64,000 nt of DNA from Daejeonella sp. H1SJ63 (GTDB taxonomy: Bacteria; Bacteroidota; Bacteroidia; Sphingobacteriales; Sphingobacteriaceae): positions 310,001 to 374,000 of the forward strand of contig NZ_JARKMZ010000028.1 of the NCBI RefSeq assembly GCF_029360775.1. Reading direction: 5' to 3'. Below the pieces are notes generated by a model. The model was not told the origin of the DNA. It did not search any database and was given only the letters and a program-made list of their open reading frames with translations. Position 1 is the first letter of the stretch; each line of letters opens with the position of its first letter. The translations under genes were made by a program, and so were the position numbers. Positions 45,305-61,012 of this stretch are shown piece after piece.

Positions 45305-47575
45305 ATGCTAAAGGGCGGCGAAATAAAACCGTATTCATGTTACATACTTAAAGGTATTTCCCTGTTTTTGTTAATCTTACTGAGTGCCATGAATTCCTTT
45401 TCATTAACCCTTGTTGAGAATGGAAAATCATTATATACTATTATTGTATCCGGTAATGCCGGCAAATCTGATCTGAAAGCTGCTGAAGTATTGCAGCAAT
45501 ATATCCGGGAAATGTCGGGTGTACTTATCCCGGTCAAGGATGACAGTAATTCTGAAAGTCCGTTTGAAATTCTTTTGGGCAGTACTCAGCGGACTTCACG
45601 TTCAAACTTTGAAGGGGTAATTAATGATGGTTTTATAATTGAAACCCTGGGGAATAAATTGCAGATCAGCGGTAAAGAAAAGGGAACATTATACGGAGTG
45701 TATACCTTTCTTGAAAAATACCTTGGATGCCGGAAATATACATCTGATTATAAGTTTATTCCAAAGAAAGAATTGATTTTAATCCCAGCTATTTCTGATT
45801 TACAGAACCCTCAATTCAAATTCAGATCACTTCATTATTATGATGCCGAAACAGATCAGGAGTATCTTGACTGGCATAAACTGAATCGTATAGAAGACCA
45901 GTGGGGGCTATGGGGGCATACTTTTTTTAAACTTCTTTCTCCGTCAGAATACTTTGACACGCATCCTGAATATTTTAGTCTTGTTCATGGTAGGCGTAAA
46001 GCAATGCAATTGTGTCTAACTAATCCCGATGTACTTAAAATTGTTGGTGATAATCTCCAGAAACTGATGCTTAATGAACCGGATATGCAGATCTGGTCGG
46101 TCAGTCAGAATGATAATACAGGTGCATGCGAATGCGACAATTGTTCGTTATTAAACAACAAATTTCAAAGTTACCAGGGCTCATTACTGAGTTTTGTGAA
46201 TAAGCTTGCCGAACGCTTCCCGGATAAAACTATTTCTACAATGGCTTATACATTCTCGCGCAAACCTCCTGTGGGTATTAAGCCTTTAAAAAATGTAAAT
46301 ATTCTTTTTTCAACCATAGATATTAATCGCGCAAAACCTGTTCAGGATGATCCCAGATCTGAACTTTTCAGAAAGGAGCACGAAGCCTGGTATAACCTTG
46401 GTTCAAACATTATTGTTTGGGATTATGTAGTTCAATTCTCTAATTATTTCAGTCCGTTTCCTAATTTGCATACTCTCAAACCTAATTTAAACTATATCAG
46501 CAGCTTTAATCCTGCCGGTTTATTTATTCAGGGTAGTGTTGAAGTGCCCGGCGAGCTTGCCGGGCTCAGGACTTATATTCTGGCTAAATTACTCTGGGAT
46601 CCTCAAACGGATACTGAAGCAATAAAGGAAGAGTTTCTGGATGCTTATTACGGGAAGGCCTCAAATCATGTTAAGGAATATCTGAACCTGATTCATCAAA
46701 ATGCAGGTAAATCATGGAAACGGATGGATATTTACGATAATCCGGTGACACCTTTTAATACTTACCTTAAAAAAAGCAATCTCAGGAATTATCTTGAAAT
46801 ACTGGAGAGGGCCTCTGAAGTCGTTAGAAATGAACAGCATTTGTACAAAAGAGTACAAATCATAAGTCTTCCGCTACATTTTGCTATTCTTCAACAGGCA
46901 AAATTCTATGGAATAGATGATTATGGAGTATTTAGTCTTGATGGTAAAAAATGGCTTGTTAATCAGGATATAAGAGATCGTCTTGAAAAATTTATTGCTC
47001 TTCTTAAGCAATATGGTATTAAACAACTGAATGAATCGGGCTTAACCCCTGATCAATATCAGTCAGAATGGGAAGAGATATTTAAATTCGGTCCGGATCT
47101 GCATAAAGCATTGCATAAACCGGTTAAACTGATTACCGCGAATCAGAATGATTTTAGCGGCAAGGGACCGGAAACTTTAGTGGATGGGACTGCGGGTGCA
47201 AAAGATTTTCAGTTCAACTGGCTTGGATGGTATGGTGATAATATGGAAGTACTTATAGATCTGCAGGAATTAACAAAAATAAGCAGAGTCAGGATGTCGT
47301 TTCCGGAAAATCAACGTTTTTATACTTTTTTGCCTGTTTCAATCCTTATTGAAGTGTCTGATGATGGGAAGAAATTCAGGCAGGTGGCTGTTATGAATAT
47401 TCCTGGGCCGGTTGAAAGTGCTCAGGAGTCAATCAGGACTTTTGATCTTGATTTCAGAAAAACAAAGACACGTTATGTCAAAGTTACTGCTGTCAATCAG
47501 CCGTCACTTCCCGAATGGCGTTTCAGAACTGATCGTAAATCCTGGATAATGACTGATGAGGTAATGATTTACTAA
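45305..47575 (+). CDS. DUF4838/GH67-N-like secreted protein with discoidin domain
   Basis: A 756-residue exported protein (hydrophobic signal ISLFLLILLSAMNSFS after a 16-residue basic/polar start). An alpha-glucuronidase N-terminal-like domain (about 30-150; AAEVLQQYIREMSG, GTLYGVYTFLEKYLGCR) is followed by a DUF4838 catalytic-like TIM domain (about 190-450; WGLWGHTFFKLLSPSEYF, WSVSQNDNTGACECDNCS, TMAYTFSRKPP). The C-terminus is an F5/8 type C carbohydrate-binding domain (from about 607; GPETLVDGTAG, VRMSFPENQ, RYVKVTA). Probably acts on complex glycans. It has no SusCD or other CAZyme neighbours. Confidence 0.83.
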   Translation: MLKGGEIKPYSCYILKGISLFLLILLSAMNSFSLTLVENGKSLYTIIVSGNAGKSDLKAAEVLQQYIREMSGVLIPVKDDSNSESPFEILLGSTQRTSRSNFEGVINDGFIIETLGNKLQISGKEKGTLYGVYTFLEKYLGCRKYTSDYKFIPKKELILIPAISDLQNPQFKFRSLHYYDAETDQEYLDWHKLNRIEDQWGLWGHTFFKLLSPSEYFDTHPEYFSLVHGRRKAMQLCLTNPDVLKIVGDNLQKLMLNEPDMQIWSVSQNDNTGACECDNCSLLNNKFQSYQGSLLSFVNKLAERFPDKTISTMAYTFSRKPPVGIKPLKNVNILFSTIDINRAKPVQDDPRSELFRKEHEAWYNLGSNIIVWDYVVQFSNYFSPFPNLHTLKPNLNYISSFNPAGLFIQGSVEVPGELAGLRTYILAKLLWDPQTDTEAIKEEFLDAYYGKASNHVKEYLNLIHQNAGKSWKRMDIYDNPVTPFNTYLKKSNLRNYLEILERASEVVRNEQHLYKRVQIISLPLHFAILQQAKFYGIDDYGVFSLDGKKWLVNQDIRDRLEKFIALLKQYGIKQLNESGLTPDQYQSEWEEIFKFGPDLHKALHKPVKLITANQNDFSGKGPETLVDGTAGAKDFQFNWLGWYGDNMEVLIDLQELTKISRVRMSFPENQRFYTFLPVSILIEVSDDGKKFRQVAVMNIPGPVESAQESIRTFDLDFRKTKTRYVKVTAVNQPSLPEWRFRTDRKSWIMTDEVMIY

Positions 47576-47577
47576 GG

Positions 47578-48714
47578 TCAGTTGGCTTGTGGCAGGCTAA
47601 TCCGGTAAGTTAGACCCTCTTCCTGATTTTGCCGGTACTCAAATTCACCATTCATATTTTCTACTAACTCTTTTGTTAAATTTAACAAAGAACTACCAGG
47701 CATAGCATGCGTTTCTTTTGGAGTTTTACTATTCACCGAAATATGAAGAATATTACCATCCGGTTTAACACTGAGGTCGAGATCAATTGTAATTTCAGTA
47801 CCTGAGCGGCTGAGTTTTATTACACTTGAAACCGGGGTAACAATGGTTTGAAGGATTTTTTTTCTTGAAAAAGGGATATGATGTTTGTCGGGATTTACTT
47901 TAAGATTTAGTGTTATTTCTTTTCCTTTTGCTAAAGGCATGAAATGCTGACTGATACGTTCGGCTAAAGTTTGCAGATTAAAAGTGCTATAATGTTCCAG
48001 CTGATTATTGTTGAGTTCAGCAAATACAGAGTCTGCGATCTCAAGAATTGATTTACTGCTGCTATTGATCAGATTGACAAATTCATTGATTTCATCATCA
48101 GTATGTGTTTCATTTTCATCAATAATAAGATCAGATATTCCAATGATTCCCGCTAAAGGATCTCTCAGATTATGGGTAATCTTTCTCTGCATTTTAATAG
48201 CATCTGAAAGGTCGTGCTGCAGGATATTGATAGTATGAAATGCTTTAAACTTATTGGTAAGCTCTTTGCCAATTAACTTGAAAAGCTCAATTTTTTCAGG
48301 ACTTAGCTTCTTGTTTTCCCGGTCCATTACACAAATAGTGCCAATATTTACACCCTCACTTAGTACCAGCGGAATTCCAAAATAATATCTTAAGTGAGGT
48401 GCATTACGTACATAAGTCATATTTTTGAATCGGTCGTCTGCAGTCAGATCCTCAACTTCGAAGTAATCGGTTCCTGCAATAGTATAGTGGCAGATACACT
48501 CTTCTCTGGGCATAGAGGAAATCTGAAATCCGTGCCGTGCTACCGTCCATTGGGTAAGAGAATCCACCAAGTTAATTAAGGTTACATCCATGTTCGTAAT
48601 CTTTGAAGCCATTTCAGTAAGAACTCCAAATTCAGATTCGAGTTCACTGTAATCAATCTCAAGATTAGACAGACTTAATAACCTTTCATATTCGTTTCTT
48701 GAAAAATCTTTCAT
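47578..48714 (-). CDS. GAF domain histidine-kinase-like protein with degenerate ATPase
   Basis: A 378-residue soluble protein. The GAF domain (about 20-160; WTVARHGF, MPREECICHYTI, YYFGIPLVLSEGVNIGTICV) is followed by a DHp-like helix pair with KITHNLRDPLAGIIGISDL (His about 180) and a domain in the position of HATPase. The ATPase boxes are eroded: the N box reads TIVTPVSSVIKLS without the asparagines, the G1 box has no DxGxG (SVNSKTPKE), and GTGLGL is replaced by GSSLLN. It probably cannot bind ATP normally. It is divergent from the receiver gene at 48888, with a 173-base shared regulatory gap. Confidence 0.8.
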   Translation of the reverse strand: MKDFSRNEYERLLSLSNLEIDYSELESEFGVLTEMASKITNMDVTLINLVDSLTQWTVARHGFQISSMPREECICHYTIAGTDYFEVEDLTADDRFKNMTYVRNAPHLRYYFGIPLVLSEGVNIGTICVMDRENKKLSPEKIELFKLIGKELTNKFKAFHTINILQHDLSDAIKMQRKITHNLRDPLAGIIGISDLIIDENETHTDDEINEFVNLINSSSKSILEIADSVFAELNNNQLEHYSTFNLQTLAERISQHFMPLAKGKEITLNLKVNPDKHHIPFSRKKILQTIVTPVSSVIKLSRSGTEITIDLDLSVKPDGNILHISVNSKTPKETHAMPGSSLLNLTKELVENMNGEFEYRQNQEEGLTYRISLPQAN

Positions 48715-48887: not shown

Positions 48888-49241
48888 ATGAAAATTTTAA
48901 TTGCTGAAGATGATGAATTGATGCTGAAGACTCTCGAGTTTCGTTTGAAGAGAGATGGGCATCAGATTTTGCTGGCGAAAGATGGCAGACAGGCACTTGA
49001 AATCATTGAAAATGACCTCCCTGATTTAGTTATAACAGATATTATGATGCCTTATTCAACAGGTCTGGAGATTGTTGGATCAGTAAAACAAAAATTCGGA
49101 GATAAAATTAAGGTGATTATACTTTCAGGAATGGGACAGGAAAGTGTGATATTGGAAGCTTTTCGATTGGGTGCCGACGATTATATAACAAAACCATTTA
49201 GTCCGAATGAACTTTCTGTTCGTGTAAGCCGCTTTAAATAA
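48888..49241 (+). CDS. Single-domain response regulator
   Basis: A 117-residue stand-alone receiver: acidic pair in LIAEDDELM, phospho-Asp about 53 in LVITDIMMPYSTG, Thr/Ser in VIILSGMG and Lys in YITKPFSPNE. There is no output domain, so it must act by protein contact or as a relay step. First gene of an operon with a HEAT-repeat membrane protein (19 bases on) and a GT2 synthase. It probably controls polysaccharide synthesis post-translationally, an inference from position. Confidence 0.9.
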   Translation: MKILIAEDDELMLKTLEFRLKRDGHQILLAKDGRQALEIIENDLPDLVITDIMMPYSTGLEIVGSVKQKFGDKIKVIILSGMGQESVILEAFRLGADDYITKPFSPNELSVRVSRFK

Positions 49242-49260
49242 GAAATCTCAATCTTGTGTC

Positions 49261-50391
49261 TTGATTAGTTACCTCGAACAATATATTCATAATTTTTTGC
49301 CGGGGTTTAATCTGCCTCTTCTGGGAGCTGCATTTTTTGCTATTCTGATTTTTATTTTAGCTGTATACATTCTTATTTATCAAAGATTAATAAGAGATAC
49401 AGAGGCTAAGTATAAACGCTGGGATTTTATTGCAGATCATACCATAAGGGATGCTATTTTTTTTGATGAGAGCACTTCAAATGATACCGATGCATTATCT
49501 GTTCCTGAGTCTGAAAAACTGAATATACCTGACAGGCTGAAAAGACTTTTGAAGAATAAGAAATTCAGATTTCGTTTGATGAAAAAAATTCTTTATGCCA
49601 AAAGTGATGTTTCAGGTGAGGCAGGAGAGAATTTAACCAATCTGTACCGTCTGCTGGAATTGGATAAGGGCATTGATAAAATGCTGCAAAGTAAGTCATG
49701 GTATTTGAATGCGATGGCGATACAAGCTATAGGAGTACTTGAATTGAAAGAATTCAGAGATCATGTTTTTCGTTTTGCCAATAATAAAAGAGGTTTAATT
49801 AGGGTTGAGTCTCAAAATGCAATGATCAAGTTTGATGGATTTGAGGGACTTCGTTTTCTTGACACGGCAACTTATCCGATTACTGAATGGCAGCAAATCA
49901 AGCTTCTTGATGAACTTTCTCATTTGCCAGACGAACATTTTACGGGTATTGAAATCTGGCTTAAGTCAGTGAACGATACTGTGGTAATTTTTGCCCTTAA
50001 GCTTGTTCGTACCTATTACCGTTTTGAACTTTATGATCAGATTCTGGAATGCCTTAAACATAAAAACCAGGAGGTTAGAAGACAGGCGATTCTGGTACTG
50101 AAAGAATTGCCTAATCCACAGACAGCTCCAATATTGATTTCACTATATCCGGGTGAAACAGGTAAGAATCAGATTCTGATTCTTTTTGTAATGTCTTTTG
50201 TTAGTTCTGATGAAGATATACCATTTTTGATGAATCTGCTTAATGATGAAAACAATGAAATTAAGATAAATGCAGCCAAAGCAATTGCCTCGCTTGGCCC
50301 GTATGGTATGGACATGCTGGAGTCACATCCAAATGTTAATGCTGAGCCCCTTAGCCAGATTATTGCTCAGATAAAGGAGGAGTCAAAATGA
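49261..50391 (+). CDS. Membrane-anchored HEAT-repeat protein
   Basis: A 376-residue protein with one N-terminal membrane helix (about 18-40; LLGAAFFAILIFILAVYILI), then a cytosolic-looking alpha-helical solenoid. HEAT-like repeats are clear in the last 200 residues (NAMAIQAIGVLELKEFRDHV, NQEVRRQAILVLKELPNPQ, NNEIKINAAKAIASLG). It starts at TTG 49261; no ATG/GTG lies between the preceding stop and the helix. Its stop overlaps the GT2 start (ATGA), so the two are coupled. It may link the response regulator to the synthase as a scaffold. Confidence 0.8.
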   Translation: MISYLEQYIHNFLPGFNLPLLGAAFFAILIFILAVYILIYQRLIRDTEAKYKRWDFIADHTIRDAIFFDESTSNDTDALSVPESEKLNIPDRLKRLLKNKKFRFRLMKKILYAKSDVSGEAGENLTNLYRLLELDKGIDKMLQSKSWYLNAMAIQAIGVLELKEFRDHVFRFANNKRGLIRVESQNAMIKFDGFEGLRFLDTATYPITEWQQIKLLDELSHLPDEHFTGIEIWLKSVNDTVVIFALKLVRTYYRFELYDQILECLKHKNQEVRRQAILVLKELPNPQTAPILISLYPGETGKNQILILFVMSFVSSDEDIPFLMNLLNDENNEIKINAAKAIASLGPYGMDMLESHPNVNAEPLSQIIAQIKEESK

Positions 50392-51815
50392 GTCTGCAGG
50401 ATATATTTAACGTTGCGATAAGCTCACTGTTTCTGGGTTATTCACTGTTTTTGATGTGCGGGTATATTTTTATTGGTTTGTATTCTATTGGTGAATTAAA
50501 AAAATACCTCCGCAAAAATAGTTTTACCAATTATCGTCTGCTGGCAAACTCAGCCGAAGCGCCGAAGATCAGTATCATAGCACCTGCATATAATGAGGGG
50601 GCAAATATTATTGAGAATGTACGCTCTCTTATGTCAATTTATTACAGTAACCTGGAGATTATTATTGTTAATGATGGGAGCAAGGATGACTCTCTGGAGA
50701 AACTCATTAATTCCTATGAGCTTTATAAAGCAGAGTTTTTCGTCAATGAGCAGATTCCAACCAAAAGCGTTCGGGGTGTGTACAAAAGCAGGAATAGTAT
50801 CTACAGTAAGCTTTTGGTAGTGGATAAAGAAAACGGGGGTAAGGCGGATGCTTTAAATGTCGGAATCAATGTTTCCAGAAATGATTATATTGTTTGTATA
50901 GATGTGGATTGTATTCTGGAACAGGATGCAATTCTCAAACTTGTAAAGCCCTTCCTTGAGACCAATAAATTCAGAGTGATTGCAACAGGCGGAGTGGTAA
51001 GAATTGCCAATAGCTGTGAAGTGGTTGATGGCAGGCTGGTAAAGGTTCATCTCCCAAAGCAATTATTGCCAAGGTTACAAACTCTGGAATATATTCGTGC
51101 ATTTCTTCTCGGCAGAATGGCATGGAGTCGTTTGGGAGGTCTGATGCTTATTTCAGGAGCATTTGGTGCTTTTGACAAAGAGATTGCAATTAAATGTGGA
51201 GGATACAATCATAAAACAGTGGGTGAAGATATGGAGCTGGTGGTAAGAATGAGGCGTTATATGGAAGAAAACCGAATTCCATATCGTGTGTCTTTTATTC
51301 CTGATCCTCTTTGCTGGACAGAGGCCCCCTCAACATTTCAAATTCTTGGCAGACAGAGAAATCGCTGGACGCGTGGGACTATAGAAACTTTAAAAATGCA
51401 TAAGGTGATGTTTTTTAACCCTAAATACCATTTGATGGGTATGCTGAGTTATCCTTACTGGTTTGCATTTGAATTTCTGGCGCCCATCATTGAGTTTGTT
51501 GGATTTATTTACTTCAATCTCTTTATTTTATTTGGGGAGGTCAATGTTAAATTTGCGCTTTCATTGTTGTTAATGGTTTACTCTTTTGGGGTATTATATT
51601 CTGTATTTGGTATCCTTATGGAGGTTCGTACTTATAATCAGTATAAAGACCGGAAAGATACATTGAAATTGTTGCTGGCAACTCTGATAGAACCATTAAT
51701 TCTTCATTCTTTTGGTGTATGGCATGCGATTATGGGTAATATTGATTTGCTAAGAAAAAAATCATCATGGGGTGAAATGACCAGGGCAGGGTTCTCTACT
51801 CCAAAGAAGAAATAA
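50388..51815 (+). CDS. Processive family 2 glycosyltransferase
   Basis: A 475-residue membrane GT2 of the cellulose/hyaluronan/poly-GlcNAc synthase type. An N-terminal helix (IFNVAISSLFLGYSLFLM) precedes the GT-A domain: PKISIIAPAYNEG, IIVNDGSKDDS, ENGGKADALNVGI, the DxD in VCIDVDCIL (about 169), acceptor motif TVGEDMELVVRM (about 274) and RQRNRWTRG (R/QxxRW, about 321). Three to four C-terminal helices follow. Such enzymes polymerise and extrude polysaccharide at the inner membrane. With the YaiO-like barrel nearby, it defines an exopolysaccharide locus; the sugar is unknown. Confidence 0.92.
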   Translation: MSLQDIFNVAISSLFLGYSLFLMCGYIFIGLYSIGELKKYLRKNSFTNYRLLANSAEAPKISIIAPAYNEGANIIENVRSLMSIYYSNLEIIIVNDGSKDDSLEKLINSYELYKAEFFVNEQIPTKSVRGVYKSRNSIYSKLLVVDKENGGKADALNVGINVSRNDYIVCIDVDCILEQDAILKLVKPFLETNKFRVIATGGVVRIANSCEVVDGRLVKVHLPKQLLPRLQTLEYIRAFLLGRMAWSRLGGLMLISGAFGAFDKEIAIKCGGYNHKTVGEDMELVVRMRRYMEENRIPYRVSFIPDPLCWTEAPSTFQILGRQRNRWTRGTIETLKMHKVMFFNPKYHLMGMLSYPYWFAFEFLAPIIEFVGFIYFNLFILFGEVNVKFALSLLLMVYSFGVLYSVFGILMEVRTYNQYKDRKDTLKLLLATLIEPLILHSFGVWHAIMGNIDLLRKKSSWGEMTRAGFSTPKKK

Positions 51816-51866
51816 GCCATATCTTACTAATTCCTGAATTTGAGTTTGTATTCCCGATAGTTACCT

Positions 51867-53039
51867 TTAATGAGATCTTTTGGCTGATATCCTGTTTTGA
51901 GTATATTTAATGAGAATATTTGTCATCATTGGCCGATAAAAATTCCAGAAAAAACTGGCTCTTTCCATCGGATTTCTGGAATCATAGAACAGCCACTTGA
52001 AATTGCCTATTCCTTTAAAATAAGAAGTGTTCAGTGATATAGGGTTATCGCAAAAATCACCAGAGAAATAATAGAATTGATAATCATCTTCATCATGATA
52101 GGTGATTGCCGGGAAAGTTGCAGGAATTCCATGTTTTTTTAATTCAGAAAGCCCTTTCTGGTTGGTGCTGATTTTGAAATCAGCAGCAGATTTGTTCACA
52201 TTTTCGTCAAAAGTGATGATATCGAACCAGAAAGGGTATTTTACATTTTCGGGGAGCTCAAGTTTTGTACGTCCTTCCTGATTGCTAAGAATTTGTGGCA
52301 TTGGATTCGACAGATGGGTGCTATCTTCCAGAATGACTAAACTTTCATCACTGTGCACGAAGATTACACCTGCTTTTTTGAAAGGCCATTGATTGTTGTT
52401 TTGCTTTTTGTAATTATTGATGAGCCAATGCGGCAGATCGCCATTTGCAGTGGTATCCAGACTCTCAAAATGTTTAACCGTCCAGCCTGTCCATTTAAAA
52501 TGAAATATTTCTTCAAACTTTTTTCTTTCCTCCTCTGCTGTTGGAGAGCCTATGGTATTGAATTCAGCAATGATCAGTTTCTTTTGTTCCTTCATCAAAC
52601 CTGCCATTTGTACATCATTGGCACTTAAGCCTCCATACAGCATTTTAGATTGTTTCATCTTATCCTTTTGCCTGTACCAATCATTATAATAAATACCATA
52701 TGTATCGGTAATGTAAAACAGATCAGAATTCTTACTCAATTCTTTTAGCTTGTCTGAAGAAAATTGCTCGAGTCCGCTGATGTTGAACTTTTCATCATCT
52801 AAGGGGAAAAAGCCATAGTAATCACTACTGACCTGATAGGATTGATCCTTGTTGTTTGTGAAGCGTTCATGATTAAGCACCCAATTCAGTGAAATATGTT
52901 CCTGCCCGGCATTAGTTAAAGTGCTCTTGTCAACAATTACAGCAATGAGTTTAGTCTCAGGTGTTAAAAACCATACAAGAAATAAAATCAAGGGCAGGAA
53001 AGTAATGATGATTATACCGTACAGAAGTTTTTTGATCAT
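51867..53039 (-). CDS. Membrane-anchored periplasmic protein of unknown function
   Basis: 390 residues. One N-terminal anchor (KKLLYGIIIITFLPLILFLVWF) is followed by about 360 residues with no other hydrophobic helix, so it is probably exposed to the periplasm. The opening strand KLIAVIVDKSTLTN, the repeated aromatic motifs (DTYGIYYNDWYRQ, HFKWTGWTVKHF) and the ending WNFYRPMMTNILI do not match a family I recognise. The alternating beta-alpha segments with ITDTYG and AEFNTIG suggest a Rossmann- or deacetylase-like barrel. It starts one base after the YaiO-like stop, so the two are an operon. A role in polysaccharide modification or export is likely only from context. Confidence 0.7.
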   Translation of the reverse strand: MIKKLLYGIIIITFLPLILFLVWFLTPETKLIAVIVDKSTLTNAGQEHISLNWVLNHERFTNNKDQSYQVSSDYYGFFPLDDEKFNISGLEQFSSDKLKELSKNSDLFYITDTYGIYYNDWYRQKDKMKQSKMLYGGLSANDVQMAGLMKEQKKLIIAEFNTIGSPTAEEERKKFEEIFHFKWTGWTVKHFESLDTTANGDLPHWLINNYKKQNNNQWPFKKAGVIFVHSDESLVILEDSTHLSNPMPQILSNQEGRTKLELPENVKYPFWFDIITFDENVNKSAADFKISTNQKGLSELKKHGIPATFPAITYHDEDDYQFYYFSGDFCDNPISLNTSYFKGIGNFKWLFYDSRNPMERASFFWNFYRPMMTNILIKYTQNRISAKRSH

Positions 53040-53040
53040 A

Positions 53041-54306
53041 TTAAAAGCGGATCATATAGGAAATGCCAAATTCAAACTGATTGCCTTTGGTATCTTTCAA
53101 ATATTCCTGATTTTCAAGAGATGCTCTTAAATGAATGATATTTGAAGTACCGATTGATCTTCTGTATCCCAGAGATAAATTACTTGATTTAAGACGGTAG
53201 GTATTCCCATTGTTAAACAAAAGGTTATTTCTTGGGTTGTCAGGAGAGATTCCCTTGCCTGCACCTATTGTCAGATAGTCGTCGGCTCCGCCAAAATAAT
53301 AACGAATATTCAAGGAACCCGATTGTGATACAGAGCTGTTTGAGGGGGTGATATAACTTCTGATGTTAAACCAGAAATTCTTGTAGTACTTGCCAACAGC
53401 GGCAGTATATACCCAGGTCTGATCATCATAACTTAATACCCTGAATCCACCTTCCGCTTCAAATGCGGACGGAAGATTGGCATAGAGCGAAAAACCTGCT
53501 CTGTATTCAGGAAAAACCTCTGTATTTGAAGAGTAGCCACCGCTCAGGTAAGCATATAGGGTGTTGGATATGCGAGGGTAAAAATCAAGTTCGTATTGTG
53601 TTCCTCCTGTATTAAATCTGTTAGCAAGATTGATTCTTCCGGTTATTGATGCTGCTTTGGTCTGACGGCTATATTCGATGTTAGCCATATGCCAGGGATC
53701 ATCGAATTGCTTATCGAAATAAACATAACTGTATCCAACGCCAATCTTGTTATTTGCACCAAGTTCACCCGATTGTCCGGATAAAGCACGGGCTTCTGTT
53801 AATCCCGGATTTATTTTAAGCAGGTTGTTAAGAGTATTAGTTGATTCATCAAAGCGTCCCAGCGAATTAAGAACTTTCACTTTCAGTAATAGTAAATCTT
53901 CTGATTTTTGATTGTATTTGAGTCCGGCTGAAATAATATCAAGAGCGGTTTCAAATTCATCATTCCAGAACTCCAGTGAGCCATAAGCAAAGTACGCATC
54001 TTCGTATTCCCTGTTTTTTTCAATCACCCTTTTGAACTCAGTGCGGGCACTGTCTGGCTTATTAGTCCAGCTGTATAAACGTCCTAGGAAGATTCTGATA
54101 TCAGCATAATCAGGACTCTTGATTAATGCTTTTTTACTTAAGCTTATCGCTTCTGTATAGTTTTTATCATCAAATGCAAGCCTTCTTGCTTTTTCAAATA
54201 ACTCCTCGGGTGTATCACCAGTCTGAGCGCATAAATTCGCAGGTATAAATCCAAGCAAGCTGAAGAAAATAATTAATGAACATTTATTTAAGATGGCCCT
54301 GGTCAT
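53041..54306 (-). CDS. TPR / YaiO-like outer-membrane beta-barrel
   Basis: About 421 residues from ATG 54306, which gives a signal peptide (MTRAILNKCSLIIFFSLLGF, ending ANLCAQ); an in-frame ATG at 54336 would add ten residues. TPR repeats (about 25-160; AISLSKKALIKSPDYADIRI, EYEDAYFAYGSLEFWNDEFE) are followed by a barrel of about 16 strands (VGYSYVYFDKQFDDPWHM, DDYLTIGAGKGISP) ending MIRF with terminal Phe. This TPR-plus-YaiO plan occurs in exopolysaccharide export (YaiO, PgaA-like). It is transcribed with the unknown anchored protein and converges with the GT2 operon. Confidence 0.85.
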   Translation of the reverse strand: MTRAILNKCSLIIFFSLLGFIPANLCAQTGDTPEELFEKARRLAFDDKNYTEAISLSKKALIKSPDYADIRIFLGRLYSWTNKPDSARTEFKRVIEKNREYEDAYFAYGSLEFWNDEFETALDIISAGLKYNQKSEDLLLLKVKVLNSLGRFDESTNTLNNLLKINPGLTEARALSGQSGELGANNKIGVGYSYVYFDKQFDDPWHMANIEYSRQTKAASITGRINLANRFNTGGTQYELDFYPRISNTLYAYLSGGYSSNTEVFPEYRAGFSLYANLPSAFEAEGGFRVLSYDDQTWVYTAAVGKYYKNFWFNIRSYITPSNSSVSQSGSLNIRYYFGGADDYLTIGAGKGISPDNPRNNLLFNNGNTYRLKSSNLSLGYRRSIGTSNIIHLRASLENQEYLKDTKGNQFEFGISYMIRF

Positions 54307-54480
54307 AAGATTAGTCAGATATAAGAATTTGCTCATCCGGATCTAGCAGGCTCTAAATCTATTTCTGCTTATGAATGACCTGACTAAATTAGGGAATTTA
54401 AATCCTATTAAAAATGATCTGTGTCAGGAATAAGTTCTGTTGATTGTGATTGCTTAGTTTTAAGAATTTCAGGCAGTAAT

Positions 54481-56070
54481 TTACCTCACCAGCAGCATAG
54501 TTCTGATCTGCTGTATATTATTGTTTTGCAGACGGGCATAATAAACTCCCGGAAGATATCCCTCGTTTTCGAAAGTTACCTTATGTGTGCCTGCATTCAT
54601 TTCCATATCAACCAGCGTTTTGATCAGTTTACCTTCGGTATTAAATACCTGAATAAGAGCATGACCTCCGAAAGTTTCATAAGAAATGGTAGTAGAGGTC
54701 TGGAATGGATTCGGATAATTGCTGATGATGTTTTTGCCTGCATTGGCATTGATGATTTCCGGATTGGATGATATACATGGTGCAGTTTTCTTGATTACCT
54801 GTAAACTTTGAAAGTTTTTCAGCATTACATTTTCCAGTGTGGTGTCAGGAACACAGAACCATTGCTTTAATATGGAGGCGTATACCGACCGGAAATCGTA
54901 CTGCATCGGAATATTATCTGATGTTCCGGTAGTGATCGGGATAACCGGACTTGCACCCAGTACATCATTTTGTGCATAGTGCCCAAACACAAATAGTGGA
55001 GCTGCAGCACCATGATCTGTGCCTCCGCTTGAGTTTGATTTAATCCTTCTCCCAAATTCTGAGAAAGTCATTCCAATGACTCTTTTTTCAGAGTTCAAAA
55101 ATTTTAAATCATCCATAAAGGCCTTTATTCCCTCAGATACTCTTTGCAAGAGGTTTGCATGATTGCCGGTTTCAGTGGCATTGGCATTCACCTGAAGGGA
55201 GTGTGTATCAAACCCTCCAATACTTACCATATAAATTCTTGTCTTCAGGCCTCCTGCAATCAGGCGGGCAACAATCTTTAACTGGTCGGCAAGACTATTT
55301 CCTGTAGGATAGGATGACTGCTTGGTAACCTTTGCAGCAGCAGCTTTAATTACATTGCCATATTGTTGTGTTTGCTGTGCAATTTGTCGGATATAAGTCA
55401 GCTCCTTACCTCCGCGTGTATTGGGAGCAGTTCCCTGTATTCCGTTTATCAGATTGTAAAAGTTTACAGGATCTGAAATAGCCATACCCATATTCACGGC
55501 CGGTCCCTGCATTGCAGGTGAAACGAATGATCCGATTTGTATAGCCAGTGGGTCGGGCATCACACTGTTTGGATAGCCGATTGGGAAATTGCTGTATTCT
55601 TCATTCAGATACCTTCCAGCCCAACCTGAATTAAGTGTCTGATTTGAATCTGATGCCGTCATCCAGATATCTGTTGCCCTGAAATGAGAGAAATTAGGCT
55701 GCGGATAACCTACAGACTGAATAATCTGCAATTTTTCGTCATTAAATAATTTTTGTAAGCCTGTCATGGATGGATGTAAACCGGTAAAGCTGGTTCCATT
55801 CAATTTCAGGATCTTGTTTTTGGGAATGATAATGTTCGATCGGGCATTCGCCAGATTATCGTACTGATCAAATGGAATCACCATGTTGAGCCCATCATTA
55901 CCACCATTAAGCTGAACAATAACAAGTACATGGTCAGTTTCTGTTGGAGCCTGTGTTAACGCAGAAACCAGCGGCGATTCTGCATAAGCCTTAAAAGTAA
56001 AGCCATTGATCAGTGCCGGAAAAACAATTCCTGCAGGAGCCGTTTTGCGTATAAAATCTCTCCTTTTCAT
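54481..56070 (-). CDS. DUF1501 protein with Tat-type signal and T9SS tail
   Basis: 529 residues. The N-terminus KRRDFIRKTAPAGIVFPALI is a twin-arginine signal followed by a hydrophobic core and an AYAE cut site. The DUF1501 (sulfatase/phosphatase-like) domain spans about 40-430: VLVIVQLNGGNDGLNMVIP, GLHPSMTGLQKL, SIGGFDTHSLQ, MTFSEFGRRIKSNSSGGTDHG. The last 80 residues are a type IX secretion sorting domain (NYPNPFQTSTTISYE, GKLIKTLVD, GVYYARL, ending MLLVR). The product is thus predicted to cross the inner membrane by Tat and the outer membrane by T9SS. It overlaps the DUF1800 gene by four bases. Confidence 0.9.
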   Translation of the reverse strand: MKRRDFIRKTAPAGIVFPALINGFTFKAYAESPLVSALTQAPTETDHVLVIVQLNGGNDGLNMVIPFDQYDNLANARSNIIIPKNKILKLNGTSFTGLHPSMTGLQKLFNDEKLQIIQSVGYPQPNFSHFRATDIWMTASDSNQTLNSGWAGRYLNEEYSNFPIGYPNSVMPDPLAIQIGSFVSPAMQGPAVNMGMAISDPVNFYNLINGIQGTAPNTRGGKELTYIRQIAQQTQQYGNVIKAAAAKVTKQSSYPTGNSLADQLKIVARLIAGGLKTRIYMVSIGGFDTHSLQVNANATETGNHANLLQRVSEGIKAFMDDLKFLNSEKRVIGMTFSEFGRRIKSNSSGGTDHGAAAPLFVFGHYAQNDVLGASPVIPITTGTSDNIPMQYDFRSVYASILKQWFCVPDTTLENVMLKNFQSLQVIKKTAPCISSNPEIINANAGKNIISNYPNPFQTSTTISYETFGGHALIQVFNTEGKLIKTLVDMEMNAGTHKVTFENEGYLPGVYYARLQNNNIQQIRTMLLVR

Positions 56071-57707
56071 GACAACTGATATTCAGGAAGGTTCATGAGA
56101 TATTTAAACATTGATTGCAGGCGTGTCAGTACTATGGTTCTGTTTACCACAATACCGGTATTGCTTTTATAAGTAAGCCATGCTGCAGTCCAGTATGAAT
56201 CTGTACTCTGGCCTGAAAGAAGAATACTTTTCAGAAAATCTTTTACTGATTGAGTAACTTCGATAGAATAAATAATTGACAGACTGTCATTAATAAGTTT
56301 GTTCGGATCAGAAGGATCAGATAATGAGTCGGCAAAAGTCAGAATATCTATATTGATCTTTTTTCCGTTCCTTGTATATCCATTCCCAATCATGATATCG
56401 CTGAACTGGTTACGTCTTGGTAAAGTATCTGCATTTATCCAGAGTTCGTGGAACTGAGGTTCCTGATAATACGCTGACCAACCTGCTACACTTGGCGGAT
56501 CGCCTAAGTTTTGCTGCATATTTGATGCCTGGGTACGGATGTAATCATGCATATAATATTGATTGACATAGTCAGTAGCAATGGGGAACAGGATATTGTA
56601 TTCACGACATAAACCAACACAGAAATCTACCGGACTTTTAATCATACAAGCTCTGTTCAGCGGATCAAAAAAGTGTTCACTACTGAATAATGCCCTGAGA
56701 ACCGGTTTAATCTCATAATTGCTGTTTCTGAACGTTTGGGCAAGAGGGGCAATTACGTTAGTTTCAGTAGCCTCATCGATTTCATAATAAACGAAGAACC
56801 TGTAAAGCCGGCGGCATATATAAAGAGCAACCTCTTCCTGCTGGAATATCATATTCAGCAGCTGATCCATTTCCAAAGCACCATTGGTGCCCGTTTGTCC
56901 GTTGATTACCGCATTCTTATAGAAGGATGAAAATTGTTTATTACTTGTGTCGTGCCGGTTTGGGTCAAATGAAGATGATATTGTTGTAGCATTAACAGTA
57001 TATCCGGTAAGGACTTTAGCTGCTGCTTTTACGTCTGATTCAGTATAATTTGACTTCGGTCCTTTACCTAAAGTGAATAATTCCTGCAGCTCACGGGCAT
57101 AATTTTCATCAGGCGAGTTTTTATTGTTAAGATAGCCGTTCAGGTACCTGAGCATAGCCGGATCAAGACTGATTTCTTTTACAAGCTGCTTGAAATTTCC
57201 CAGCGCATGCGTTCTCAGTAATGCATTATGCTTATAAATATAGCGTGCATCATTGATGTCTACAGTTTCAGTGGCAAAGTGATTATGCCAGAAGAGAACC
57301 ATTTTTTCGTGTATGCTGGTCTCTTGGTGCAGCATCAGACCTGTCCACCATGATTTGAAAGAGCTTATTCTCCTGCCATTAGCATTTCCATCATAGACAG
57401 CTTTAACCCAGGTTTGTCCTGCAGGAACATTAGGGTCGGTAAAATTGGAATCGTTATAGTTGTTTACAGGTGGCAAAGGCTCCGGACTTGCTGTGAGCAA
57501 TAAGTCTAAAGCTTCATTAATACCTTTGCCATTGAGCATGTCTATATCTTTTTTGTTGACACCAAATAAGGTACGCTTGAGTAAATGGTGAATCCCGGCA
57601 TTCTCCAGTATAGGCGAATATTTTCTTAATCCTGATGAGGTTCGATAAACAACCGGATTAGCTTTTATTTCAGATTTAAGGCTTCTAATAAATTTGCGTC
57701 GGTCCAT
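56067..57707 (-). CDS. DUF1800 domain protein
   Basis: 546 residues of DUF1800: HHLLKRTLFGVNKKDIDML, KSWWTGLMLHQETSIHEKMV, LFWHNHFATE, PDENYARELQELFTLG, AAKVLTGYTV, FFDPLNRACMIKSPVDF, GDPPSVAGWSAYYQ. These proteins are found beside DUF1501 across bacteria; biochemical role unknown. It starts MDRRKFIRSL, a twin-arginine-like pair, but no hydrophobic segment follows, so it lacks a normal export signal. Four-base overlap (ATGA) with the downstream DUF1501 gene means coupled synthesis. It might be carried out together with DUF1501; that is inference. Confidence 0.88.
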   Translation of the reverse strand: MDRRKFIRSLKSEIKANPVVYRTSSGLRKYSPILENAGIHHLLKRTLFGVNKKDIDMLNGKGINEALDLLLTASPEPLPPVNNYNDSNFTDPNVPAGQTWVKAVYDGNANGRRISSFKSWWTGLMLHQETSIHEKMVLFWHNHFATETVDINDARYIYKHNALLRTHALGNFKQLVKEISLDPAMLRYLNGYLNNKNSPDENYARELQELFTLGKGPKSNYTESDVKAAAKVLTGYTVNATTISSSFDPNRHDTSNKQFSSFYKNAVINGQTGTNGALEMDQLLNMIFQQEEVALYICRRLYRFFVYYEIDEATETNVIAPLAQTFRNSNYEIKPVLRALFSSEHFFDPLNRACMIKSPVDFCVGLCREYNILFPIATDYVNQYYMHDYIRTQASNMQQNLGDPPSVAGWSAYYQEPQFHELWINADTLPRRNQFSDIMIGNGYTRNGKKINIDILTFADSLSDPSDPNKLINDSLSIIYSIEVTQSVKDFLKSILLSGQSTDSYWTAAWLTYKSNTGIVVNRTIVLTRLQSMFKYLMNLPEYQLS

Positions 57708-57949: not shown

Positions 57950-60900
57950 ATGATTGCTGATAAGAGTTTCTTTCAAATATTTAAGACCTCTCCTCTTCCG
58001 GCTGCGATCTTGTCGCCAGAAAGATCCGATTGTTTTGTTCTGGGATGTAATGATGCCTTTCTGTCTAAGTTTGAGGTCTCAGACTTCAATAATTCCGGAT
58101 CTAAATTGTCAGATATTTTAAGGACAAGCAAATTTGAATTTAGTGATGATTTTTATGCTCAGTTAAAGAAGATAATAAGCAGGGTAATCAAAGTCAAAAA
58201 GCCGGATAGCTTTGGGTACACTTGTCTTAAGTGCTTGGAGGTTCAGGGAAATGGCCTTTCTCAACTTTATTGGACAATAGAGCTGGTTCCCATTATTGAT
58301 GAACTTAACAAGGTATCTGATATTGTTCTTTATCTGCATCTTAATAGTTATACAGAGGAGTCAGATTACAAGTTTTTGATTAACAATATGGAGGAGTCCT
58401 TCGTATTTGTTGATAGGAACTTAAAAGTTGTATCTTTCAATAATCAGTTCAGAGCACTATACAATATTTGTTTCAAGACAGATGTAAATGTCGGTGATTA
58501 TGTCATTGAAAGGGTAAGGCCAGACAGGAAAGTTCATATACAGGAAATATTTAAATCAGTATTTTCAGGACAGGTGGCTGAATCAGAAACTGAGTTTATA
58601 TCATCCAATAATAGCGTCGTAACATTATCAATGCATTATAAACCTGCCTTTGACTACTCAGGCAGGGTTATAGGTGCATTAATAACCATTGTAGATATAA
58701 CTGAAAAGAAAAGGCGCCTTCAGGTGCTTAAAGACTCTGAAGAGAAATATCGGCACCTTTTTCAGTTTAGCCCTCTTCCTCAATGGATTTATGAACTGGA
58801 GAGTTTTAGGATAATAGATGTAAATGAAACTGCAATTAAACATTATGGTTACAGCAGGGAAGAATTTCTGAGTATGACTTTGATGGATCTTCGTCCTGAA
58901 ACGGAAATTCATAAATTGATGGCTGCACATCAGAATATTCATTCTATAAATGAAGTAAGGAATTTTGGAGTTTTTTTACATCGTAAAAAGAATGGTGATT
59001 TGATACGAGTAGATGTCTCTGCTTATCCGCTTAATAACAATGGCAAAAAAAACATCATGGCAATCTACAACGATGTCACTGAAAAGTATAATGCATTTCA
59101 AAGGTTAAAAGAAAGTGAAGCTAAACTGCAGGCATCTCAAAAAATTGCACATATAGGCTATTTTGAACTTAATAATGAAACTCAAAAGCTTTACTGGTCT
59201 GACGAGATATTTAATATCTGGCAACTTGAGCCACAAAAAAATCAGCCTGACTTTGATTATATCATTAAACACATCCACCCTGATGACAGGGATGAAGTTG
59301 TTAAAATGATGAACTCAGAAAGTAGGGGTGAAGGTGATAGCGAGTCGATACACCGGATAGTTCTTGATGATGGAACACTCAAGTGGATTCAGCTAAGATG
59401 GAGCAGGGTTATGCACGACAATAAGCTTGTGCTTGTTGAGGGAACTGTTCAAGATATCACTGAATCGAAACTTGAGTTTGAGAAGTTACTTCTTAATGAG
59501 GTTAGGTATGAATATATAATGGAGGCAACCTCTGATGCGATTTGGGACTGGGACCTTATTTCTGACAAAATCCATTTGGGCCAAGGATTTCAAACTCTGT
59601 TTGGTTATAAGGTTGGGGAAGAAAACTCCGGTCATGAATTTTGGAAAAAAAATATCCATCATTCAGATTATCAAAGAGTTACTGGTAATCTGAATGAAGT
59701 AACAAAGAGATTCGAATCAATCTGGAAGATCGAATATAAATTAAGAAAGAATAATGGTGATTATGCTTATGTTTCTGACAAAGGTATCCTGATAAGAAAT
59801 GAAGATAATGAGATTACGAGGATGATTGGAGTAATCCAGGATATAAGTATTGAAAAAAATAAAGAACTACAAAAATCCTTAATTGCTGACCTTAGCCTCA
59901 CTTTTAGTAATCTAGAGGCATCGCTTGAAGAAATATTAAATGAATTTCTTAAAAGGATCATTTCTTTTGGGAACTTCAGTATTTCTGAAATATGGCTTTT
60001 AAATGAGGATAAGTCCAAATTAAACTTAATTTCCAAAGCTACTATCAGTAAGGAACTGGATGTATTTTATAATAAAAGTACTGACTTTATAAGTTTTGCC
60101 TCTGGAGAAGGAATTCCCGGAAAAACATTTCAAACAGGGACAAATCAAACTTTTTTTGATATTGATAAAAACCCTGAATTTATGCGTCATGATGCAGCCA
60201 GAATTGCAGGTTTGGTTACAGCATATGGCTTTCCAATAAAAGTTAAAGATGAAGTTATCGGAGTTTTTGTGCTGGGATTGCGGGCTAATGAATACGACCC
60301 GTTTAAAATTGCAGCACTTGATGAAATTTTTTTAAAGGTTCTTAGTTCCGAAATTGAACGTAAAATCGTACATGATGCACTCATAGATTCTGAAAAACAA
60401 TATAGTACCCTGTTTCATTTGAACCCTGAACCAATGTGGGTTTATGATATTGAAACACTTAAATTCCTTGATGTTAACAAGGCTGCTGTCGACCAGTATG
60501 GATACAGCAGAGAAGAGTTTTTATCTATGACAATCAAGGATATCCGTCCTAAGGAGGATATTCCATTATTGAAAGAATCAATAAAATGGGCAAAAGAGCA
60601 TCGTGAGATGGGTTTCGATAGCAAATTCAGACATTTGAGGAAAGATGGCTCAATTCTTATTGTTGAGATCAAAAACAATATAATCCGTCATCAGGGACGT
60701 GATGTGAAATTAATACTTGCCCATAATATTACTGAGCGGGTTAATTACATAAAAGCCATTGAGGAGCAGAATTTAAAACTCAACGAAATTTCGTGGATGC
60801 ACTCGCATATTGTGCGGGCACCGGTTTCAAAACTTATGGGATTGATCAATCTGATCAAATCAACTTCGCCGGAAGATGATTTGAGAGAAGAGTTATTTGG

Positions 60901-61012
60901 CTATGTGCTTGAGTCTGCCAATGAACTTGATGCTGTGATCAGGAAAATTACAGAAAAAGCAGAGGAGATTCATTTGAAAAATCCAGAATTCAGGACCTGG
61001 AGAAAAGAATGA
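57950..61012 (+). CDS. Multi-PAS/GAF sensor protein ending at the DHp domain
   Basis: 1020 residues, soluble. Reading along: two divergent PAS domains (about 5-120 and 130-255), PAS (263-385), PAS (395-510; WSDEIFNIWQL, IHPDDRDEV), PAS (515-640; ATSDAIWDWDL), GAF (645-805; GEGIPGKTFQTG), PAS (814-935), then a DHp hairpin EISWMHSHIVRAPVSKLMGL (His about 950) and stop. The PAS domains at 263 and 814 are near-duplicates (YGYSREEFLSMT in both). No HATPase follows. This HSHxVRAP ending recurs in Sphingobacteria PAS proteins from memory. Likely a phosphoacceptor or modulator of other kinases. No gene partner is close. Confidence 0.85.
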   Translation: MIADKSFFQIFKTSPLPAAILSPERSDCFVLGCNDAFLSKFEVSDFNNSGSKLSDILRTSKFEFSDDFYAQLKKIISRVIKVKKPDSFGYTCLKCLEVQGNGLSQLYWTIELVPIIDELNKVSDIVLYLHLNSYTEESDYKFLINNMEESFVFVDRNLKVVSFNNQFRALYNICFKTDVNVGDYVIERVRPDRKVHIQEIFKSVFSGQVAESETEFISSNNSVVTLSMHYKPAFDYSGRVIGALITIVDITEKKRRLQVLKDSEEKYRHLFQFSPLPQWIYELESFRIIDVNETAIKHYGYSREEFLSMTLMDLRPETEIHKLMAAHQNIHSINEVRNFGVFLHRKKNGDLIRVDVSAYPLNNNGKKNIMAIYNDVTEKYNAFQRLKESEAKLQASQKIAHIGYFELNNETQKLYWSDEIFNIWQLEPQKNQPDFDYIIKHIHPDDRDEVVKMMNSESRGEGDSESIHRIVLDDGTLKWIQLRWSRVMHDNKLVLVEGTVQDITESKLEFEKLLLNEVRYEYIMEATSDAIWDWDLISDKIHLGQGFQTLFGYKVGEENSGHEFWKKNIHHSDYQRVTGNLNEVTKRFESIWKIEYKLRKNNGDYAYVSDKGILIRNEDNEITRMIGVIQDISIEKNKELQKSLIADLSLTFSNLEASLEEILNEFLKRIISFGNFSISEIWLLNEDKSKLNLISKATISKELDVFYNKSTDFISFASGEGIPGKTFQTGTNQTFFDIDKNPEFMRHDAARIAGLVTAYGFPIKVKDEVIGVFVLGLRANEYDPFKIAALDEIFLKVLSSEIERKIVHDALIDSEKQYSTLFHLNPEPMWVYDIETLKFLDVNKAAVDQYGYSREEFLSMTIKDIRPKEDIPLLKESIKWAKEHREMGFDSKFRHLRKDGSILIVEIKNNIIRHQGRDVKLILAHNITERVNYIKAIEEQNLKLNEISWMHSHIVRAPVSKLMGLINLIKSTSPEDDLREELFGYVLESANELDAVIRKITEKAEEIHLKNPEFRTWRKE

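Follow-up and report, generated by a model that had tools for sequence, protein, structure and literature searches.

A gene cluster of Daejeonella sp. H1SJ63, lying within the 64,000-nt stretch of DNA analysed here (the window), is probably one copy of a widespread and apparently undescribed Bacteroidota machine that makes and exports a surface sugar polymer. For the scheme as a whole we favour synthase-dependent polysaccharide secretion in which a receiver and a HEAT-repeat protein gate the synthase. More tentative is the specific proposal that the lone receiver, once phosphorylated, acts by way of a membrane-anchored HEAT clamp to gate a processive GT2, in a mechanism that would be widespread in Bacteroidota and would replace the c-di-GMP/PilZ control of cellulose, PNAG and alginate systems; we advance it as a serious candidate only. 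Searches of the open-licence literature (YaiO; HEAT with glycosyltransferase and receiver; LTA synthase in Bacteroidetes) returned no description of the locus, which is weak evidence of novelty.

ORF checks and domain scans placed all five genes of the preliminary description, with their domains, where it had put them, in two convergent sets whose stop codons lie 51 nt apart (51,816–51,866). On the forward strand a single-domain receiver (48,888–49,241) is followed by an N-terminally anchored, probably cytosolic HEAT-repeat protein (49,261–50,391; TTG start; PF13646, 2.6e-12) and by an inner-membrane GT2 polysaccharide synthase (50,388–51,815; PF00535 and PF13641), the last two genes overlapping by 4 nt. 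On the reverse strand a gene for TPRs followed by a YaiO 16-kDa-type barrel (53,041–54,336; PF19413, 4e-71; TIGR04390; TPR_19) leads into the gene of the protein listed as unknown (UNK; 51,867–53,039), which starts 1 nt after it. The barrel is real, although its longest ORF begins at 54,336 and not at 54,306, the latter being an internal ATG that yields a better signal peptide. The receiver, said to be fused in operon to the HEAT protein, is encoded by a separate co-oriented gene, and neither a receiver–HEAT nor a receiver–GT2 fusion was seen among about 135 loci. Also missing from the original gene list was a reverse-strand gene divergent to the receiver (47,578–48,714), which encodes a GAF-DHp protein, a degenerate histidine kinase (Pfam HisKA, 2.7e-6). 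Promoter and terminator scans gave results at or under chance level.

The GT2 has the D, DxD, (T/G)ED and QxxRW motifs and the transmembrane segments that define processive GT2 synthases. The motif residues D96, D172xD174, E280-D281 (GED281) and Q323-R-x-R-W327 (QRxRW) are invariant in 88/88 aligned homologues. The barrel scores well above both family cut-offs (PF19413, 239 versus 23.9 bits; TIGR04390, 201 versus 32 bits). The idea of a synthase working with an outer-membrane barrel is supported. The GT2 would polymerise sugar from cytosolic UDP-sugar and extrude the chain across the inner membrane, and the TPR-YaiO protein, a candidate outer-membrane export channel and the putative pore, would take the polymer through the periplasm and the outer membrane.

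The nearest named locus is yaiP-yaiX-yaiO of E. coli, where a GT2 and a YaiO barrel, both uncharacterised, also share one gene group. However, the E. coli GT2 is only 24% identical over 243 aa to that of the window, BLASTP gives no alignment between the two YaiO proteins, and the E. coli stretch, in which no receiver or HEAT protein is annotated, has in their place a deacetylase and an acyltransferase pseudogene. The PNAG systems (pgaABCD/ica) are similar in joining a PgaC-type processive GT2 to a TPR-barrel outer-membrane protein, but the best NCBIfam match of the window GT2, PgaC_IcaA (TIGR03937), reaches 140.2 bits against an equivalog cut-off of 422.3, and a receiver-HEAT set takes the place of the c-di-GMP input.

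This arrangement is conserved across Bacteroidota families. The YaiO domain occurs in 69 and UNK in 11 of 296 evenly drawn Bacteroidota genomes. Full reading of 49 strong YaiO loci, the weakest YaiO matches having been left out, showed a GT2 in 45, a HEAT profile in 40 and a lone receiver in 38; five more have a HEAT gene by position, four of these genes giving HEAT_2 matches, one under the curated cut-off. The core set is accordingly present in about 44 genomes, or ~15% of the evenly sampled Bacteroidota, and is far more widespread than UNK. A lack of co-occurrence in other genomes, named beforehand as the result that would speak against the proposal, is clearly not what we found. Where the upstream neighbour is visible, 104/105 GT2 genes of the family are immediately preceded by a HEAT-type gene, a count that takes in unlabelled genes of 330–540 aa at that position, and 50 of the 104 pairs show the 4-nt overlap. 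A lone receiver is present in 91/105 loci: in 74 its gene immediately precedes HEAT, and in the other 17 it has a different place in the locus. Since many loci were gathered via UNK or YaiO, these counts hold for this family, not for GT2 enzymes in general; neither HEAT nor receiver genes were found within 1.5 kb of the seven other PF13632 GT2 genes of this genome.

The remark that no PilZ or GGDEF domain is seen could be extended from the locus to the whole genome, where searches for these two domains found neither. Among 45 carrier genomes GGDEF occurs in three and PilZ in none. The synthase accordingly lacks the PilZ domain, or PilZ protein in the genome, expected of a c-di-GMP-controlled cellulose synthase. 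Bacteroidota are prominent among the environmental bacteria that form biofilms and polymers. With most carriers devoid of GGDEF and all of them devoid of PilZ, this locus offers a concrete candidate for the switching of synthase-type polymer secretion. The gene set also names further parts, namely a sulfatase-fold transferase and a GATase/GIFT-like periplasmic protein.

The receiver (117 aa; PF00072, 3e-27) has no output domain and possesses the acidic pair E7 and D8 as well as the phospho-acceptor D51 and K102, as expected of a response-regulator receiver. In the alignment of homologous receivers above the score cut, the phospho-Asp is found in 93/94 and the Lys in 94/94. Exceptions occur among more divergent receivers. 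In L029 an Asn replaces the Asp, and a diverged receiver-like protein of 115–117 aa adjoins HEAT in Gramella/Christiangramia/Gillisia loci (L062, L071, L075, L078, L080, L081 and L082), with the Asp kept and the conserved Lys lost. Lineages with such degenerate receivers may run without phosphorylation. In the HEAT protein the PF13646/PF02985 repeats follow one N-terminal transmembrane helix (residues 21–39). Because the C-terminal flank of this single helix is positive, the solenoid should be cytosolic. Its AlphaFold model is an alpha-solenoid (mean pLDDT 87) whose Foldseek matches are HEAT-like and armadillo solenoids.

An output-less receiver encoded beside a membrane-anchored cytosolic scaffold and a synthase makes direct phospho-control of the synthase the best reading, as judged from sequence. 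As the receiver has no output domain, its phosphorylation state would most simply be read by the HEAT scaffold, which would contact the GT2 and switch it on or off; both this contact and the direction of control we infer. The tie of HEAT to GT2 is, on the other hand, tighter than that of the receiver, and in some loci (L085, L094, L115 and L184–L190) the receiver stands with a kinase and YaiO, away from HEAT. These points fit an alternative in which the genes still belong to one polysaccharide locus, with a receiver that does not act on the synthase but serves as a phosphate sink or as a diffusible signal for targets elsewhere (motility or transcription), and with HEAT as no more than an assembly factor of the synthase. 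We consider this rather unlikely, given that the receiver is kept in the locus in most lineages, mostly right before HEAT, and that an output-less receiver needs a protein partner, the constant partners being HEAT and GT2. For direct phospho-control the nearest mechanism is found in Myxococcus xanthus, where the phosphorylated single-domain receiver EpsW activates the EPS enzyme EpsZ post-translationally (PMC12802240). There a lone receiver acts directly on an EPS enzyme, as the receiver of the window, encoded next to HEAT and GT2, may do. EpsZ, however, belongs to a Wzx/Wzy pathway, in which it is the phosphoglycosyl transferase, whereas in the window the enzyme is a processive GT2 and a HEAT protein stands between it and the receiver.

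Many related loci have hybrid kinase, Hpt or receiver-Hpt genes beside the receiver. In the window this place is held by the GAF-DHp protein, which, when aligned with homologues whose catalytic parts are complete (L059, L069, L079 and L103), retains the His (KITHNLRDPL) but proves to have lost all three boxes (N, G1 and G2) required of a catalytic sensor histidine kinase; its HATPase match, at only 15.9 bits, is under the cut-off. The same degenerate form, with the His kept and the ATP-binding boxes lost, occupies the same position in three loci of the genus (L037, L038 and L041); its close relatives from Pedobacter and Desertivirga are catalytically complete. Judged by these motifs, the protein probably serves as a phosphotransferase, phosphatase or adaptor and not as the kinase. 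Having lost the ATP-binding motifs, it cannot bind ATP in the normal manner, and the receiver's phosphate would have to come from elsewhere: it would be supplied by a remote kinase, and GAF-DHp would pass on or remove the phosphate in a Spo0B/ChpT/Hpt-like manner. The loss of these boxes throughout the window's group, together with the absence of the phospho-His as well from the homologues of L043, L060 and L067, could also mean that in the window lineage the receiver arm is not driven by phosphorylation at all, GAF-DHp being a pseudokinase adaptor and control being exerted by a GAF ligand. This seems improbable to us, as the His persists in the window, L037, L038 and L041, D51 and K102 of the receiver are intact, and an Hpt protein fills the same role in other loci. 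Farther along the window (57,950–61,012) a PAS-rich sensor of 1020 aa stops soon after an H-box-like motif (MHSHIVRAPVSKLMGL), as read by eye. It seems to have no ATPase domain and would be another possible kinase near the locus that is devoid of its catalytic part.

UNK is a membrane-anchored periplasmic protein of 390 aa, and its listing as unknown holds in so far as it matches no Pfam or NCBIfam family; a profile search against the sequences of solved structures gave chance matches only. A fold and regular partners, YaiO and the transferase, can nevertheless be assigned. Its AlphaFold model is confident (pLDDT 90.5, pTM 0.90) and has a GATase1-like/GIFT-like fold, with VIA Z scores of 13 to 15 over 205–228 residues; Foldseek alone is weak (best E 8e-5). 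The best VIA scores are 15.0 to 2gk3, 13.5 to Agd3 (6nwz) and 13.1 to an OST subunit (6s7t_G), and kin by VIA-align (Z 12 to 15) comprise GATase1-like proteins, GH42 middle domains, the polysaccharide deacetylase Agd3, ThuA-like proteins, IFT52 and the OST48-type oligosaccharyltransferase subunit. We also considered a class I glutamine amidotransferase and rejected it for want of a conserved nucleophile Cys: none of the columns conserved in >=97% of 92 homologues is a Cys, and glutaminase activity is therefore unlikely. Invariant in 92/92 homologues are D37, K38, W53, E159, N161 and E176, residues that suggest a carbohydrate site. In 79 loci UNK is the gene that immediately follows YaiO, and a protein of this fold, anchored in the inner membrane, may bind or process the chain in the periplasm.

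The five genes had been taken for the whole system, whereas the fuller form adds a gene that the window has lost. In most related loci there is also a gene for an LtaS/OpgB-like membrane protein that contains a sulfatase fold (PF00884). With 26–50 versus 572 bits and 22–43 versus 970 bits it remains far under the cut-offs of the NCBIfam equivalogs LtaS and OpgB (LTA synthase and phosphoglycerol transferase I), and its fold relative is VP1736 (3lxq; 2e-19). Residues E290, T330, D523, H524 and H561, which by analogy with LtaS we take to be the nucleophile and metal ligands, are kept in 88 to 94 of 94 sequences. Fusions join the transferase to GT2 in 16 loci, to TPR in ten and to GT2 and TPR together in two, and they argue for one trans-envelope complex. 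Among strains that can be cultured, Daejeonella lutea DSM 22385 and Pedobacter insulae DSM 18684 have the full set. In most relatives it would add a phospho-group (phosphoglycerol or phosphoethanolamine) to the chain, a step that would be lost at the window.

Although the transferase nearly always accompanies UNK (51/53 full loci), it is absent from the window locus. A tree of the GT2 proteins puts the window together with L041, a Daejeonella MAG with the complete set, and with L037 and L038 of the same genus, which would place it in Daejeonella or close by. L041 has a 681-aa sulfatase-fold transferase gene at the position of the convergent junction, and no remnant of the transferase C-terminus was seen in the 51-nt gap between GT2 and UNK of the window. 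The loci of L037 and L038 have neither transferase nor UNK, and UNK is absent from both whole genomes. Loss of the transferase inside one genus is the simplest reading, and the genus thereby provides a natural series: L041 with the full set, the window without the transferase, and L037 and L038 without both transferase and UNK. A distant transferase homologue elsewhere in the genome (C21:231343; 26% identity) was rejected as a stand-in.

The relationship of the transferase to the LtaS/phosphoglycerol transferase type would also suit a surface glycan or teichoic-acid-like polymer held on lipid, in place of a free exopolysaccharide. We regard such a product as very improbable, as the QxxRW processive signature and the constant TPR-barrel partner point to free-polymer export and the window has no transferase. 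For a free polymer modified on its way out, the cellulose (Bcs) system with BcsG is comparable: synthase, TPR-barrel export and, in relatives of the window only, a putative chain phospho-transferase outside the inner membrane. It differs in that none of the 45 carriers has PilZ, that the GT2 scores 44 bits against CelA, far under the cut-off of 699, and that the window lacks the transferase. Phosphoethanolamine cellulose offers the closest precedent for the modification of a synthase product by a transferase (PMC11470070).

YaiO, UNK and transferase are found without the GT2 set nearby in 10/53 full loci. Loci L049, L052, L053, L058, L073, L083, L090 and L106 are of this kind, with no receiver-HEAT-GT2 within 10 kb. 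The three genes can be seen as an export/modification module able to live apart from this synthase.

Some neighbouring genes may bear on the polymer itself. GH16, Hpt, receiver and UNK genes stand in a row in L026 (10,073–11,783) and L119 (4,724–7,645). GH16 enzymes cleave beta-glucans and galactans, and an endo-glycanase beside the switch hints at the identity of the polymer. A recurrent neighbour and possible accessory in the window is a glycosidase-like protein with DUF4838 and F5/8C domains by domain scan (45,305–47,575, forward strand). A DUF4838 gene is also present at the locus in L038 (4,350–6,599) and directly downstream of YaiO in L163 (5,826–8,051), and the DUF4838 and F5/8C protein of the window, its genus and L163 is a candidate glycosidase for the polymer. 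Finally, YaiO of the window is adjoined by a DUF1501 (with a T9SS sorting tail) and DUF1800 pair at 54,481–57,707.
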